A program made the position numbers and the translations under genes. From a virus, in the IMG/VR virus record IMGVR_UViG_3300042546_000192, positions 1 to 36,689 of that record: a stretch of DNA of 36,689 nucleotides; one strand, written 5' to 3'. Position 1 is the first letter of the stretch; every line of letters begins with the position of its first letter. This document shows positions 2,542-33,685 of this stretch, piece by piece. The notes under the pieces were generated by a model. The model made no database searches and was not told where the DNA came from. It was given only the letters and a program-made list of their open reading frames with translations.

Positions 2542-5072
2542 AAATTAAGCCGTTAGTGGAGAGATTTTCAGGTAAGTATTGGCATACAGAGATTACTCGC
2601 GCTGAAGAGCGTTTTAAAAAGTTCGTTGAAGCCGCAGAAGAGTCTATCAGAGTTTATAATGCACAAAAGCAGGTAGGCATCCTAAATGATACTGAAAGAC
2701 GACTTAATTCTTGGTGGTATTGCGTCAATACTCTTCTTCCTGCTTACTTTTCGTCCACGCCGAAAGCAGAAGTAACGCTTCGTAAGAGAACCGGCGGTGT
2801 AGTAGAGGAACTAACCGCTGTCGGTCTAGAGCGAAACATTCAGTACGATATGGATACTGAGTTTTGCTTTGCAGACGTAGGCAGAAATGCAGCTCTGCAC
2901 TTCCTCCTTACCGGCTTGGCTGTTCTTTGGGCACGATACGAGACAGAAATTGAGGATGATGAGGTTGAAATCGCTCTCTTCCAGCTTCCTGATGGACAAC
3001 TCGTTGACGACCAAGGACAGCCATTCCAAGGAGAACCGCTAGAGATTAAAGACGGTCCAGGACAGCTAAAGCTAGTCAAAGTTCAGACACAAAAGAAGTC
3101 AGAAGAGTGCGCGATTCTGGAGAATATCCAGTACAACGACTACCTCTGCTCCGATGCTAGAAACTCCTATGAGATTGAGTGGCAGGCTAGACGCGCTTTT
3201 GTTACTCGCTACCAAGCAGAAAAGCTCTTTGGTGAGGACTTGGCTGATAAGCTAAACTTTGACCAGTTTCCTGACAAAGATAAAAAGGACTGGCATAGAG
3301 GCGAAGACCAATACGAAGGAAAAGCAGAGATTTTTGAGATTTGGTGCGAGGAAGCCGAAAAGGTATTCTGGGGCAGTAAGAGCGTAGACGAGTTTATCTT
3401 CAAATCAGGCGAGCCTCCTATCGACTTTGAAGGCTTCTATCCTTGCGTAGTCATCGCTCAGAATACAGATCCTGATAGTATCATTCCAGTGTCAGACTAT
3501 GTCCATGTAAAAGACCAGATCCTTGAGGTTGAGCGGCTCACTACTCGTATTCATGCTGTCACTCAGGCCGTTCGTACTAACTTTGCCTACGATTCAGCGC
3601 TTGGACCTGCAGTAGAGCAGCTTATGATCGGCGACCTAAAAGGTGTGCCAATGAATAACTGGCCATCCTATAAGCAGCGTGGTGGATTAGCCAACTCTAT
3701 TGAGTTTTTAGACATTCAAGCATTTGTAAACACGCTCCAGATACTACAGAACACCAGAGACACAGCACTAAACAAGCTATTTGAGTTCCTAAAGGTTACT
3801 GACCTGCTTCGTGGTACGTCAGAGCAGTACAAGAGCGCAACCGCTAACAGACTAGAGGCTCAGTGGAGTTCTCTTGGTCTTATCGTGCGCCAAAACATCT
3901 TCGCTAAGTTCATTTCAGACGGAATCGACAAGATAGGTCAGATTATTTCCTCGCAATACAACCTAGAGAAGTTCTTCGACGTAGCTGACATGGATAGGAT
4001 GATTATGGCAGTGCTGCCACCTCCTCCTCCAATGCCAGAGCCTGATCCTAACATGCCTCCAGAGATGCAGCCTCCTCCTCCAAATCCAGAGTTGCAGATA
4101 CTCGCGTTTAAGCAGCAGGTAATTAACCTATTGCGCAACGAGGATAGGCGCTGCTACAGAATAGCCATTGCGTCAGACAGTATGATTGCTATTGACCAGG
4201 CTCAAGAGCAGGCAGAAGGTCAGGCGCTCATGGCAGCGTGCGGAGATTTCTTTAATCAGATGAAGGCACTCATTGAACAGTATCCTCCTCTGCTTGAGTT
4301 CTCAATGACGCTATTCCAGAACGTGGTGAAGAGGTTCAAAGGAGGCAAAGAAGTCGATGGTATCTTCACTAAGGCGCTCTCTCAGATTGGAGAGATTTCT
4401 AAAGCAAAAGAAGAAGCAGCAAAACAACCACCTCCACCAGATCCAATCATGCAAGAGATGCAAGCTAGAATGCAAATCGCGCAAATGGAGTCTCAAGCAC
4501 GCATTCAAGCTGCCCAAATGGACATGCAAGACAAGGCTGCTAAGAATCAGCTCATGTATCAGGAACAGCAGCTTAAAATGCAGCGCGATCAGTTGGATTC
4601 TCAGCTCGCAATTCAAAAGCAGCAGTTTGACGAGTACATGCGACAACAAGAACTTGCTATTGCTCAACAAGAAGTACAGGTCAAAGCGAACTCTGTACAA
4701 ATTGATGCGCTTAAAGTTCAAGCTAATGCGGAAAATGAACAGGCTAAGCAGGCCATTGTTCAAGAGACTAACCGCATGGCTCAAATCCTTGAGATCCAAA
4801 AACTAGAGCTAGAGCAGATGCGTATGAAGCTCTCCGAAAGCGAAAAGCTAATGGAAGAGCGTAGACTCGCGTCCGAACAAGCATTAGAAAGAGTGCGTAT
4901 GCAAATGGAAAGCATAAACACTACAAAAGCAGCGGTTGAATCTAATCCAACAAAGCAACAACCTATAGTAATCAATAACATCATTCCAAAAGCCAGTAGG
5001 AAGTTAGGCACGCTTGGAACTGATGCTCTTGGAAACACAACTTTGTCTATTGATAACATTGATGAGGACTAA
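2538..5072 (+). CDS. Portal protein with long coiled-coil tail
   Basis: This 844-residue protein follows terL by an ATGA overlap, the usual place for the portal, the dodecameric ring through which DNA enters and leaves the head. The N-terminal ~480 residues are the portal body. A proline-rich linker (about 493-523, runs of four and five prolines) leads to a helical region, and residues about 630-800 form a glutamine- and methionine-rich coiled coil. That extension could form the long barrel seen in P22-like portals. Family assignment rests on position, size and architecture. Confidence 0.85.
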   Translation: MKIKPLVERFSGKYWHTEITRAEERFKKFVEAAEESIRVYNAQKQVGILNDTERRLNSWWYCVNTLLPAYFSSTPKAEVTLRKRTGGVVEELTAVGLERNIQYDMDTEFCFADVGRNAALHFLLTGLAVLWARYETEIEDDEVEIALFQLPDGQLVDDQGQPFQGEPLEIKDGPGQLKLVKVQTQKKSEECAILENIQYNDYLCSDARNSYEIEWQARRAFVTRYQAEKLFGEDLADKLNFDQFPDKDKKDWHRGEDQYEGKAEIFEIWCEEAEKVFWGSKSVDEFIFKSGEPPIDFEGFYPCVVIAQNTDPDSIIPVSDYVHVKDQILEVERLTTRIHAVTQAVRTNFAYDSALGPAVEQLMIGDLKGVPMNNWPSYKQRGGLANSIEFLDIQAFVNTLQILQNTRDTALNKLFEFLKVTDLLRGTSEQYKSATANRLEAQWSSLGLIVRQNIFAKFISDGIDKIGQIISSQYNLEKFFDVADMDRMIMAVLPPPPPMPEPDPNMPPEMQPPPPNPELQILAFKQQVINLLRNEDRRCYRIAIASDSMIAIDQAQEQAEGQALMAACGDFFNQMKALIEQYPPLLEFSMTLFQNVVKRFKGGKEVDGIFTKALSQIGEISKAKEEAAKQPPPPDPIMQEMQARMQIAQMESQARIQAAQMDMQDKAAKNQLMYQEQQLKMQRDQLDSQLAIQKQQFDEYMRQQELAIAQQEVQVKANSVQIDALKVQANAENEQAKQAIVQETNRMAQILEIQKLELEQMRMKLSESEKLMEERRLASEQALERVRMQMESINTTKAAVESNPTKQQPIVINNIIPKASRKLGTLGTDALGNTTLSIDNIDED

Positions 5073-28256: not shown

Positions 28257-28275
28257 ACATTCTCCTTTGTGTTTC

Positions 28276-28357
28276 GGAAGAGGCAGGATTCGAACCTGCG
28301 GTACCTAAGTACTCCTCGTTAGCAGTGAGGTGATTTAAGCCACTCATCCACTCTTCC
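28276..28357 (-). tRNA. tRNA-Ser (anticodon GCU)
   Basis: On the minus strand the acceptor GGAAGAG pairs with CTCTTCC (7 bp). There is a 3-bp D stem (GAT/ATC). The anticodon loop CTGCTAA gives anticodon GCU for AGC/AGU serine codons. The long variable arm (GTAC/GTAC) is typical of tRNA-Ser, and the T arm is GCAGG-TTCGAAT-CCTGC. The last pair of the anticodon stem is A-C. CCA is not encoded and would be added by the host enzyme. Confidence 0.93.
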
Positions 28358-28364
28358 ATAAGTA

Positions 28365-30567: not shown

Positions 30568-30920
30568 ACGTTCTCCATCTTTAATATTTCGATCAGTTGC
30601 TCTTGGCTTATCTCCTTGCGGTTCCAGTAAATCCTACCGTCTGACGGTTGGCGTTGCTCAAACTGCAGTAGCTTCATTCCAAGATAATTTGGATCGGCTT
30701 TACATGCCTCGTGAACCTTCTTGAGGAGAGTTCGCTGAGCGAGACTAACATCGCCCATGAACCTCTTCTCCTCTATCAGCATCCACTTACCTGTTTTATA
30801 ATTGCCCCACACATAATCCAGGTTGGTCGCAATGTAGCCATGACGTGAGTCCAGTGCCGGTTGGACTCTCAGCCAGTCTCCAAATTCAGTTCCTTTGTCG
30901 TCGTAGCGTTGTCGTGTCAT
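30564..30920 (-). CDS. Possible PD-(D/E)XK nuclease-like protein
   Basis: A 118-residue protein with NLDYVWGNY (D35) followed 15 residues on by MLIEEKRF (E50-E51-K52), the D...(E/D)xK arrangement of PD-(D/E)XK nucleases. The segment DGRIYWNRKEISQEQLIEIL follows. Size and position in an early operon fit a small nuclease or an inactivated relative. The call rests on this motif only. Its start overlaps the upstream stop (TAATG). Confidence 0.45.
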   Translation of the reverse strand: MTRQRYDDKGTEFGDWLRVQPALDSRHGYIATNLDYVWGNYKTGKWMLIEEKRFMGDVSLAQRTLLKKVHEACKADPNYLGMKLLQFEQRQPSDGRIYWNRKEISQEQLIEILKMENV

Positions 30921-31210
30921 TAGAAGTTAAACTTATCGAACATCTCGTCCACAGTCTTATTCACTACAGCATCAATAGCGTTCTTTACTTCGCCGTCTGT
31001 CGGACCTTGACCAGTCCATGACCTAGCTTCTTGAAGAAGGCTAATCAAAATATCCAACTCCTCTGGAAAGAACTGCTTAGCTTCCTTGTACTCTCCAGTC
31101 TGTTTGTCTTTGTAGCTTTTGCGAAATGAGAAGCTGTAGCCACCGTTTCTCGTCTGCCACATTGCTACGTCGATGCCTTTGTTTCTCGCTGCTTTAATCG
31201 GTTTGTTCAT
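30920..31210 (-). CDS. Small protein, possible ssDNA-binding (PC4-like)
   Basis: A 96-residue protein, first of the leftward operon, with a beta-sheet-like core: WQTRNGGYSFSFRKSYKDKQ and AKQFFPEELDILISLLQEA. The pattern of aromatic and basic residues, followed by a helix, recalls small PC4-like single-strand DNA-binding proteins of phages. SD AAAGGA precedes the start by 6 bases. The call is tentative. Confidence 0.5.
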   Translation of the reverse strand: MNKPIKAARNKGIDVAMWQTRNGGYSFSFRKSYKDKQTGEYKEAKQFFPEELDILISLLQEARSWTGQGPTDGEVKNAIDAVVNKTVDEMFDKFNF

Positions 31211-31228
31211 AAATCATCCTTTAAAGTA

Positions 31229-31257
31229 TTGCCTAACTACATGCGAGACATTATCAT
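31229..31257 (+). promoter_or_regulatory. Rightward promoter candidate
   Basis: TTGCCT (31229-31234), 17 bases, then TATCAT (31252-31257). The predicted start of transcription falls at about 31264, next to ATG 31266, so the mRNA would be leaderless. The -10 overlaps that of the leftward promoter. Confidence 0.45.
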
Positions 31258-31276
31258 GCCTCTCTATGCACGACAA
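31248..31276 (-). promoter_or_regulatory. Leftward early promoter
   Basis: On the minus strand TTGTCG (31276-31271), 17 bases, then TAATGT (31253-31248) with an extended -10 TGA just before it. The leader would be about 30 bases with SD AAAGGA before ATG 31210. It can drive the whole leftward operon. Confidence 0.6.
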
Positions 31277-31469
31277 TACACAATCTAATAATTTAGAGTC
31301 GTATGTGGATAGCAACGCTGTCATGGAGTTCCTTAGTGTGCCACGTCGCACGCTAGAGCTACTTGTTAAGCAGGGCCTGCCACATATTCGAATTAACCGA
31401 AGCCGCCGGTATCGTCTCAGTGAGATACAAGCGTGGATTGATGCCAAGCAGGAGGAGCGAAAGCAATGA
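31266..31469 (+). CDS. Excisionase-like HTH DNA-binding protein
   Basis: A 67-residue protein with an AlpA/Xis/MerR-type winged helix: NAVMEFLSVPRRTLELLVKQ, then the wing LPHIRINRSRRYRLSEIQAW. Such proteins choose a binding site by a short HTH and the RRYR wing. ATG 31266 is chosen as the first Met after the promoter; a longer upstream frame would run across the promoters. It faces away from the leftward operon, so it probably regulates the divergent promoters. It overlaps the next gene by ATGA. Confidence 0.7.
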   Translation: MHDNTQSNNLESYVDSNAVMEFLSVPRRTLELLVKQGLPHIRINRSRRYRLSEIQAWIDAKQEERKQ

Positions 31470-31741: not shown

Positions 31742-31782
31742 AAAAAACCACTCGATACCTTGGCCGGAAAAGAGTGGCTTTT
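31741..31782 (+). terminator. Terminator or attenuator before the initiator gene
   Basis: CCACTC (31748-31753) pairs with GAGTGG (31772-31777), preceded by seven A and followed by CTTTT. With only four T it is likely leaky. It would set how much transcript reaches the winged-helix gene at 31808, for which no separate promoter is clear. Confidence 0.55.
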
Positions 31783-31807: not shown

Positions 31808-32083
31808 ATGAAAAATACAATAACACCACCACGATATTTTCTCAAGTTCTATAACGACATCATGACTGGCGAGATTACAGCCAGAGAGGCACTGGTCTAT
31901 GCCATAGTGGCAGAGTTTGAAGCTAACGGCGCTCAGTGCTTTATCAGCCGCAAGGAGTTAGGCCAAAGGATTAATGAGTCTGAGCACTCCGCAGAACGAG
32001 CTGTTCAGGTACTCTTAAAAGCTGGTTTGCTGGTCAGTCGGAGAGACGGTCGGACTAGGTACCTTTCTACCAGAAAACGGTAA
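31808..32083 (+). CDS. Winged-helix protein, candidate replication initiator
   Basis: A 91-residue protein with a winged-helix domain: REALVYAIVAEFEANGAQCF, ISRKELGQRINESEHSAERAV (recognition region, about 47-67), and a wing LVSRRDGRTRYLS. The layout resembles helix-turn-helix parts of DnaD/Rep-type initiators. The iteron array begins four bases after its stop, as for plasmid Rep genes next to their origins. A role in binding those iterons is inferred; simple repression is the alternative. Confidence 0.6.
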   Translation: MKNTITPPRYFLKFYNDIMTGEITAREALVYAIVAEFEANGAQCFISRKELGQRINESEHSAERAVQVLLKAGLLVSRRDGRTRYLSTRKR

Positions 32084-32273
32084 ACGATCTGTGCGCCAGT
32101 GAACAGAATCTGTGCGCCAGTGAACAGATCATCTGTGCGAAATGGGGCCTTGATCTGTGCGCCGGTGATACACTAATCAGATCAATAATTATAATAATAC
32201 ATATAGATCAATCTAATCAGATCAATGATCAGCAGTTAGCCTGTTGATAACTCTGTGGATAACTGTGTATAAG
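32084..32273. other. Candidate replication origin
   Basis: The stretch joins, in order, the four iterons, an AT-rich segment (32173-32230) with CTAATCAGATCAAT at 32173 and 32213 and a third AGATCAAT at 32205, and three tandem DnaA boxes on the minus strand: TGTTGATAA (32242), TGTGGATAA (32254, consensus) and TGTGTATAA (32264). Seven GATC sites lie between 32086 and 32230. The layout is that of iteron-type origins opened by Rep and DnaA. Confidence 0.7.
32087..32172. repeat. Four iterons of ~22 bp
   Basis: ATCTGTGCG begins at 32087, 32108, 32131 and 32153 (spacing 21, 23, 22). Copies 1 and 2 are the same over 20 bases (ATCTGTGCGCCAGTGAACAG), and copies 3 and 4 are diverged. Full copies carry a short dyad, ATCTGT...ACAG. 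The spacing places all on one face of the helix. Confidence 0.85.
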
Positions 32274-32308
32274 ATTACTAGGTTCAGTCCTAGTGTTGGT
32301 CACACGCA

Positions 32309-32347
32309 GCACAGGTCAGCGCACACATGCTGGCCTGTGCTTTTTTT
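32309..32347 (+). terminator. Strong terminator downstream of the origin
   Basis: GCACAGGTCAGC (32309-32320) pairs with GCTGGCCTGTGC (32329-32340), 12 bp with one G-U, followed by seven T. It ends rightward transcripts that have crossed the origin. A smaller palindrome, ACTAGG/CCTAGT, is at 32277-32294. Confidence 0.92.
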
Positions 32348-32543
32348 ATTTCTCTCCTCGTCTGTACTTTTCTCTTTTTAATTTTAAGAGTCTTTCTTTG
32401 TTAGCCTCGTACCAGCGTTTAAACCTAGCGGCTTCGACCTCTGGATTACGTTTCTTTTTTCGGTACTCAACGATTACTTCCTTGTGAGTCTCGTAATATT
32501 TCTTGTTTGCCTTGCTACGGCGCTTTTTAAATTCCTCATCCAT
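32346..32543 (-). CDS. Small basic helical protein
   Basis: A 65-residue protein composed largely of Lys, Arg, Glu and Tyr (NKKYYETHKEVIVEYRKKKR), helical, and likely to bind nucleic acid. Its sequence recalls the basic helices next to HNH domains, but no HNH is present. It is the last gene of its operon, and its stop overlaps the T-run of the opposing terminator. Confidence 0.55.
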   Translation of the reverse strand: MDEEFKKRRSKANKKYYETHKEVIVEYRKKKRNPEVEAARFKRWYEANKERLLKLKREKYRRGEK

Positions 32544-32820
32544 CTTGGACCTCGTTTTCGATTGCCTCTCTGAGCCACCGGATTCCTTCCAGGACTCCTC
32601 GCTCGTGTACTGTCATGCGCTCTGGACTGTTCTGGATAGAACTCTCTATCCTTTTAGCCTCAAAACGCATGATTGCCATTAGACAGCCTATACCGTCTTT
32701 AAAGCCTTTTTCTAATTTGGCCCTAGTCATACCATAGGCTAGGTCATTATCTCCTAACCTGGACGATTCTAGGGCCTTTAGAGAGTATTCTGCTGCCAGA
32801 GTTCTCACTTTGCTGCTCAT
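32536..32820 (-). CDS. Hypothetical helical protein
   Basis: A 94-residue protein with KLEKGFKDGIGCLMAIMRFE, a weak relative of the FxAGY motif, and VHERGVLEGIRWLREAIE. It follows the ERF gene with a TAATG overlap and overlaps the next gene by 8 bases. It could assist recombination. Function is unknown. Confidence 0.6.
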   Translation of the reverse strand: MSSKVRTLAAEYSLKALESSRLGDNDLAYGMTRAKLEKGFKDGIGCLMAIMRFEAKRIESSIQNSPERMTVHERGVLEGIRWLREAIENEVQDG

Positions 32821-33383
32821 TAAGCCTCCGACTTAGCGATTACAGCGTAAGCAGAGAGCCTGTCCATACGTTGAGGACAAGTCCAGATACCGTCATCGCC
32901 TAGTGTGCAGTTAGACTCTTTTAGGTACCTGACTGCAGCGCCTGTTTTGGATTGCTCCATAGCGCGAATGTCGTACTGGAACGATGCTCTTGGCTTTGAA
33001 GCAGCGTTACCATCGTCATCCTCAGGAGCTAGTCCTAGAGCTGTCATCAGACTGTACCTACGAGCGTAGGTCAGAGCGCTTCCGTAGCCTTGTGGATCTG
33101 ACTTAACTGCAGGAACGTGGAGCACTCCGAAATTAATTGAGTCTCCTGATTCATGCAGCAATCTAGTCTCTACTTTGACTCCTGAATCACACTCATAAGT
33201 GATTTGTATTAGGCCAAAACCATTAGCATGGAGAGCATCAATAACTGCCTCTACACAAGCCGATAAATCCGCATATTTACTGCGGAAATGTGGATTTGTT
33301 GATGATTTTAGAGCTGGCCCAAAAGACTTTTGAGCTGCAATAAACGCTTTGCTTAATATTGATGCTTTATTTGTTTCTGTCAT
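32820..33383 (-). CDS. erf: ERF-family single-strand annealing protein
   Basis: A 187-residue recombinase of the ERF family. It carries FRSKYADLSACVEAVIDALH, GYGSALTYARRYSLMTALGL and EDDDGN, the usual core of ERF annealing proteins. The C-terminal part holds C-x-x-x C-type residues (NCTLGDDGIWTCP). It would anneal single strands for circularisation or recombination-dependent replication. I start at ATG 33383; ATG 33392 overlaps the previous stop and is possible. Confidence 0.88.
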   Translation of the reverse strand: MTETNKASILSKAFIAAQKSFGPALKSSTNPHFRSKYADLSACVEAVIDALHANGFGLIQITYECDSGVKVETRLLHESGDSINFGVLHVPAVKSDPQGYGSALTYARRYSLMTALGLAPEDDDGNAASKPRASFQYDIRAMEQSKTGAAVRYLKESNCTLGDDGIWTCPQRMDRLSAYAVIAKSEA

Positions 33384-33385
33384 GA

Positions 33386-33685
33386 TTACCATCCTAGTAC
33401 GTCTTCAATTAATTTAGTTCCAGCGGACTTGCTGGTGTCATCCTCTCTATAGACTCGTAAAACACGCTTGGTAGCGTCTTTATCGCCCATGAGCCTGCGT
33501 GGTATGTCTGGTACCTCGCGCTCAACAGCGACTATCTCAGAGTCTTTAGGAAGGAATCGGTATGGACTTGTTGGGCCAAGAACCTGCTCTACGAGGTCTG
33601 GCTTATAGTCGTTATTGTCTTCTGGCAGTAGCGTTTGGCAAAAGCCTACAGACGGAATTAATAATGCTAGTAGTAATGTTCTCAT
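33386..33685 (-). CDS. Secreted protein in the recombination operon
   Basis: A 99-residue protein with a Sec signal peptide (MRTLLLALLIPSVGFCQ). The Cys is not in a proper lipobox, so it is probably not a lipoprotein. The mature part is soluble and charged (DSEIVAVEREVPDIPRRLMG). SD AGGAGA lies upstream. It may act in the periplasm on infection exclusion or envelope stress; nothing specific is recognised. Confidence 0.6.
   Translation of the reverse strand: MRTLLLALLIPSVGFCQTLLPEDNNDYKPDLVEQVLGPTSPYRFLPKDSEIVAVEREVPDIPRRLMGDKDATKRVLRVYREDDTSKSAGTKLIEDVLGW

Follow-up and report, generated by a model that had tools for sequence, protein, structure and literature searches.

Initiation in phage lambda depends on the O protein, which has an N-terminal DNA-binding domain and a C-terminal part. 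The O gene contains about four iterons spaced 20 to 24 bp, followed by an AT-rich region; the loader, P, is also encoded by the phage. The lambda initiator depends on the host replisome (PMC7466680, PMC5043065). In the RepA_N family of plasmid initiators (pSK41), the origin likewise lies inside rep, where it codes for a dispensable linker, and the C-terminal domain is host specific and can be swapped (PMC5703833). The N terminus of one chimeric initiator, pPR9 Rep, belongs to PF13730 (PMC5703833). Iteron plasmids such as RK2, P1, F, and pSC101 use initiators of the Rep_3/TrfA type and carry iterons, AT-rich unwinding repeats, and DnaA boxes in separate non-coding DNA beside rep. In RK2 and P1, the DnaA boxes beside the iterons serve both opening and helicase delivery (PMC4980987, PMC5043065).

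The locus described here lies in a 36,689-nt stretch of DNA from an uncultured short-tailed phage (IMG/VR record IMGVR_UViG_3300042546_000192), which was analyzed as a whole and is referred to below as the window. Like lambda, it has an O-like winged helix in the N-terminal position and iterons followed by an AT-rich region. Unlike in lambda, the iterons lie 3' of the stop codon, the initiator has no C-terminal part, no P was found, and DnaA boxes are present. The window also lacks the DnaG-binding C-terminal domain that RepA_N initiators keep. With the iteron plasmids it shares iterons, AT-rich repeats, and DnaA boxes placed together in non-coding DNA beside the initiator gene. It is set apart from them by the lack of a recognizable Rep_3/TrfA-type initiator and by the homology of its origin repeats to origins inside phage genes. 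Related uncultured podoviruses (L130/L184, L154, L181, L186 to L191, and others) have winged helix, iterons, and AT repeats homologous to those of the window, but their gene extends across the origin and ends in a tail. What is odd about the window, and went unnoticed in an earlier note on this DNA, is that the C-terminal part found in all relatives is missing and that DnaA boxes stand at its distal end, past the repeats of the origin.

Features of the origin region and its surroundings (positions in the window)
Feature	Position	Strand	Basis or remark
HTH_17/excisionase-like DNA-binding gene, 5' of the initiator gene	31173..31469	+	profile scans; counterpart upstream of the initiator in L050 and L017
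Leader hairpin: CCACTC stem, loop GATACCTTGGCCGGAAAA, GAGTGG	31748..31777	+	kept in most relatives, stems changed yet complementary
Winged-helix initiator gene, 91 aa, stop TAA at 32081-32083	31808..32083	+	homologous to the N-terminal domain of the relatives' O-like initiators
Open -1 frame, 62 codons, ...GDTLIRSI...NQINDQQLAC, TGA at 32245	32059..32244	+	frame corresponds to the relatives' iteron-linker frame
Seven-GATC cluster, 145 bp	32086..32230		0 of 1,000 shuffles reached seven
Iteron 1, ATCTGTGCGCCAGTGAACAGA	32087..32107	+	repeat analysis
Iteron 2, 21-mer identical to iteron 1	32108..32128	+	repeat analysis
Iteron 3, 9-nt half copy ATCTGTGCG	32131..32139	+	repeat analysis
Iteron 4, ATCTGTGCGCCGGTGATACAC, 71% copy	32153..32173	+	same as relative L181 from TGATACAC onward
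AT-rich region, 74% AT, probable unwinding element	32173..32240	+	repeats; homology to repeats within the L154 and L184 initiator genes
DnaA box TTATCAACA, one mismatch	32242..32250	-	motif search
DnaA box TTATCCACA, perfect	32254..32262	-	motif search and shuffles
DnaA box TTATACACA, perfect	32264..32272	-	motif search and shuffles
Strong terminator-like hairpin, 14 bp, z -6.15, then T run	32308..32348	+	folding
ERF single-strand annealing protein	32820..33392	-	converges on the origin

Repeats, initiator, and gene content of the window

The iterons and AT-rich repeats that the earlier note had placed at 32084-32273 are present there and lie far above what shuffled sequences yield. The 9-mer ATCTGTGCG occurs four times and nowhere else in the window (32087, 32108, 32131, and 32153; spacing 21, 23, and 22), and none of 300 dinucleotide shuffles contained a 9-mer four times within 100 bp. 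The AT-rich region has repeated CTAATCAGATCAAT units, with AGATCAA at 32179, 32205, and 32219, and contains the 17-mer CTAATCAGATCAATAAT twice (32173-32189 and 32213-32229). The three DnaA boxes and the seven GATC sites in about 145 bp reported in that note were also recovered; all three boxes are on the same strand, and 1 of 1,000 shuffles yielded two perfect boxes on one strand within 30 bp. The suggestion of a Dam/SeqA host is weak and gains no support from the comparison, since GATC forms part of the iteron and AT-repeat units in the sub-clade that includes the window, and the origins of L017 and L156 lack it; it therefore says little about Dam or SeqA and is not conserved as a regulatory feature across the relatives' origins.

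GATC is depleted across the whole window (74 sites observed versus 121 expected), a strong under-representation that points to restriction or a similar pressure, not to Dam use.

Two other lines of evidence were discarded. GC skew, a check that the earlier note had asked for, tracks gene direction and is thus uninformative on the origin. Iteron spacings that are not multiples of three were considered as a sign of non-coding DNA and set aside, since the coding iterons of the relatives also lie in different frames.

The gene 5' of the repeats does encode a predicted winged helix, as had been proposed (pLDDT 86.6 for the model of the 91-aa protein), and it stops 3 bp before iteron 1, so that the origin lies outside the initiator coding sequence. 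Alone, the protein gave weak matches to O-like initiators (phrog_678, E of 3e-4; phrog_391, E of 9e-4), and as a query it returned no significant relative in phage, plasmid, and viral collections. Its best folds in the PDB are those of RepA_N plasmid initiators (4pql, 4pt7, 5kbj, and 4pta; E of 1.7e-3, TM of 0.69). Pfam gave no RepA_N match for the window protein, the sequence similarity being below family thresholds, and no Rep_3 or TrfA-type match; no related plasmid protein was found at E < 0.3.

The hairpin in the leader of the initiator gene looks like a regulatory element. It was seen in about 20 relatives (e.g., L154, 4143-4178; L174; L017), roughly 13 to 32 nt 5' of the initiator start, with stems that are very different but complementary and loops conserved as ACC.GC.AAAGTAA or ATACCTTGG.GGGAA. 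At gathering thresholds, Rfam searches of the leader and downstream elements matched only tRNAs.

Profile scans of the 40 window proteins recognized terminase, portal, major head protein, tail protein, and a lytic virion protein, together with an ERF annealing protein and a VRR-NUC nuclease. None of the 40 was recognized as a polymerase, helicase, primase, or loader, in agreement with the earlier statement that the genome has no replication enzymes of its own; this is absence by homology only, limited by some early genes that match no family. Nor was an integrase recognized in the window, whose phage the earlier note had called lytic. IMG/VR classes the record as linear, and it may be incomplete. 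In L101, L104, and L117, the small terminase gene, which is the first gene of the window, comes after the homologue of the last window gene, either directly or with a single methyltransferase gene intervening. Judged by this gene order, little of the phage seems to be missing.

Origins inside the initiator genes of relatives

Related loci (27) were gathered through portal, ERF, and terminase searches and an HMM, and then by alignment with the closest two; among the distant winged helices, the profile alignment was too divergent to serve as a query. The relatives are environmental phage contigs from uncultured phages, at least 27 of which carry an origin of iterons plus AT-rich repeats. The view of the earlier note that this mode is rare among such phages is thus not supported, although in these contigs the origin lies within the initiator gene.

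The initiators of the relatives are 154 to 237 aa long, and in every one of them the winged helix is followed in frame by the iterons, the AT-rich repeats, and a short C-terminal tail. Three to seven iterons are present, usually 22 to 23 bp apart, in the same placement as the four annotated iterons of lambda, which lie in the middle of O. Their palindromic nature suggests binding by dimers, as in lambda, and not by monomers. At full length these proteins match the PHROG families "replication initiation," "O-like," and "DnaD-like helicase loader," with E values down to 1e-10; for close homologues of the window protein, the O-like families are reached at E values down to 1e-8 to 1e-10. Several pass the Pfam threshold for HTH_36, and PF13730, the N-terminal family of pPR9 Rep, is the family matched by the relatives of the window.

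The window protein and its origin DNA both align with these genes. Its winged helix is 51 to 60% identical to the winged helices of the closest O-like proteins among the relatives. Iteron 4 and the AT repeats align with the DNA of L181 (77% of 57 nt, E of 2e-5), with 21 identical bases in common, TGATACACTAATCAGATCAAT, and with that of L154 (78% of 60 nt, E of 5e-7). Over about 60 nt, the AT-rich region matches the repeats inside the L154 and L184 genes at 75 to 78% identity. Moreover, the initiator and ERF genes converge on the origin region in L013, L043, and L050, as they do in the window. A direct search of viral contigs with the iteron pair returned no match, and no second copy of the window origin was found; phage records held no close relative at the DNA level, and searches of bacterial genomes with the initiator and the terminase gave no host or prophage.

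From these sequence comparisons, the window region is very probably an iteron origin of the widespread lambda-O/RepA_N type, and its descent from an origin inside an O-like initiator gene is well supported. The description of the origin as "plasmid-style" in the earlier note is only half right, since the relatives keep the same origin inside the initiator gene, as do lambda O and plasmid RepA_N.

The winged helix also matches MarR and ArsR repressors, and self-regulation is conceivable, so that the repeats might be operators at which the protein represses or activates transcription, with no origin present. We regard this as very unlikely, given that no promoter-like site above chance adjoins the iterons, that a terminator follows, and that the iterons of the relatives lie inside a gene of a replication-initiator family, beside AT repeats.

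Loss of the tail and the DnaA boxes

The tails of the relatives fall into the classes W(D/N)xxKxAM(V/I)RRK, DD(I/L)P(E/D), and FGL(K/R)(K/R)RF, with a few others. The tree of the winged helices scatters these classes, with 5 changes for the W class, 8 for the DD class, and 6 for the FGL class; at least 3, 5, and 4 of these, respectively, are required by well-supported branches. L171 and L174 have nearly the same winged helix and different tails. This indicates that the tail has moved repeatedly between winged helices. By analogy with lambda O and RepA_N, the tails presumably recruit helicase or primase.

Tails also go together with sequences downstream of the gene. The FGL(K/R)(K/R)RF tail was accompanied by a CATGTCTCC-like downstream element in 7 of 7 loci, a count inflated by related sequences, and the other tails mostly by another conserved element. 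These elements are possibly single-strand initiation sites or small RNAs. For downstream element 1, RNAalifold gave one 8-bp stem with a covariation term of almost nil, so an RNA structure is not established.

A conserved element of about 90 nt, CCAAGGTTAAANGATAATG..GGGGTAGGGATACCCCTAGGCTAC..GCAACCTAGGGG, lies 3' of the O-like genes of L184, L154, L186 to L189, L191, L127, L174, L155, L170, and others, and had no match in Rfam.

The window has none of this. A tail of the relatives is not encoded in any frame at its origin, no tail motif occurs in any window open reading frame, both conserved downstream elements are missing near the origin, and with them the C-terminal region that would recruit helicase or loader. 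This tail-less form of the initiator was found in one genome only. The position where the tail would begin is occupied by the three DnaA boxes and the terminator. Perfect DnaA boxes are missing in 23 of the 27 relatives, which shows that DnaA is not a general partner of this initiator family; in the remaining ones (L184 and L186 to L188) they sit between the winged helix and the iterons, on the other strand than those of the window.

The open -1 frame across the iterons and AT repeats lacks a start codon of its own and terminates within the first DnaA box. Because its 62 codons are uninterrupted and include GDTLIRSI in the place of the PDTLIRSI of L181, it once coded or can be recoded, and it may be a relic or a recoded part of the initiator gene. 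The same features would fit a recent 1-nt frameshift, either a real mutation or an assembly error, in an ordinary O-like initiator of about 147 aa that runs through the iterons of an origin otherwise working like those of the relatives. The distance from winged helix to iterons, 4 nt shorter than in L181, amounts to a frame change and agrees with this. Nevertheless, we consider a recent frameshift possible but rather doubtful, since openness is a weak sign (2.9% of shuffles for the given frame and 8.8% for any) and the protein of about 147 aa would still end at 32245 without the tail of any relative. The loss of the tail and the presence of the DnaA boxes would thus remain even in that case. 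Programmed -1 frameshifting on A_AAA_CGG_TAA, stimulated by an mRNA hairpin of iterons 1 and 2 and yielding initiators of 91 and about 147 aa, appears extremely unlikely. A slippery run of four A is indeed followed by a stop and by a stem from 32086, and the -1 frame codes for the linker of the relatives, but four A make a weak slip site, the hairpin arises automatically from inverted-repeat iterons, and the arrangement is found in no relative.

The explanation that we favor, and consider probable, is a phage iteron origin that was formerly inside the gene, with the 91-aa winged helix acting on the iterons and host DnaA delivering the helicase. The protein would bind the four iterons, the resulting strain would open the AT-rich CTAATCAGATCAAT repeats, and from the three boxes beside the opened stretch host DnaA would deliver the host helicase and hence primase and polymerase. 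DnaA would in this way take over the job presumably done by the swappable tail of the relatives. The homology, the layout, and the absence of the tail come from the comparison with the relatives; loading through DnaA is suggested by analogy with RK2 and P1. The earlier proposal of a small initiator that loads host DnaA and the replisome accordingly stands in part: the iteron origin, the winged helix, the lack of recognized replication enzymes, and the boxes all fit, with loading by DnaA as its conjectural step. A 91-aa initiator without helicase contact has few precedents.

Alternatively, the tail may act in trans, with another small phage protein recruiting the helicase and the DnaA boxes being accessory. 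Many early genes of the window have no assigned family, and the long tail module that is joined to the L191 and L163 initiators has a similar sequence in L096 as a separate frame 3' of the initiator (about 3529-3730). We judge this unlikely, as the tail motifs are absent from all window open reading frames.

Beyond DnaA-mediated loading at the window origin, we tentatively propose that the initiator consists of two halves, namely, the winged helix with the in-gene origin and the tail co-inherited with its downstream element. In the window, DnaA boxes would have taken the place of the second half, so that helicase loading would have shifted from the tail to DnaA and the initiator would consist of the DNA-binding domain alone. 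The loci form a natural series: the part for DNA binding and the origin is constant, and the recruiting part is swapped and once missing. Such a series allows direct tests of which part of an initiator selects the host replisome and of whether a recruiting tail can be replaced by DnaA boxes alone, and it displays a route from a lambda-type origin inside a gene to a plasmid-type origin that stands alone.

Neighboring genes

A small basic protein without a family match is encoded at 30920-31210 on the minus strand and has homologues in L013, L017, L043, L050, L104, and L117. Most of the homologues end in tips like DDIPF or DDLPF, and the window copy ends in DEMFDKFNF. An ending of the DDIPF or DDLPF type is the C-terminal tip of bacterial SSB, and owing to these tips the protein may be a candidate phage SSB.

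L104 and L117, whose terminase is about 80% identical to that of the window, are without a recognizable O-like gene, and in them a RecT/Bet-like annealing protein replaces ERF. A tRNA-Ser (GCT) gene lies at 28274-28358 on the minus strand of the window, and a tRNA gene is found near the origin in several relatives (L017 and L181).
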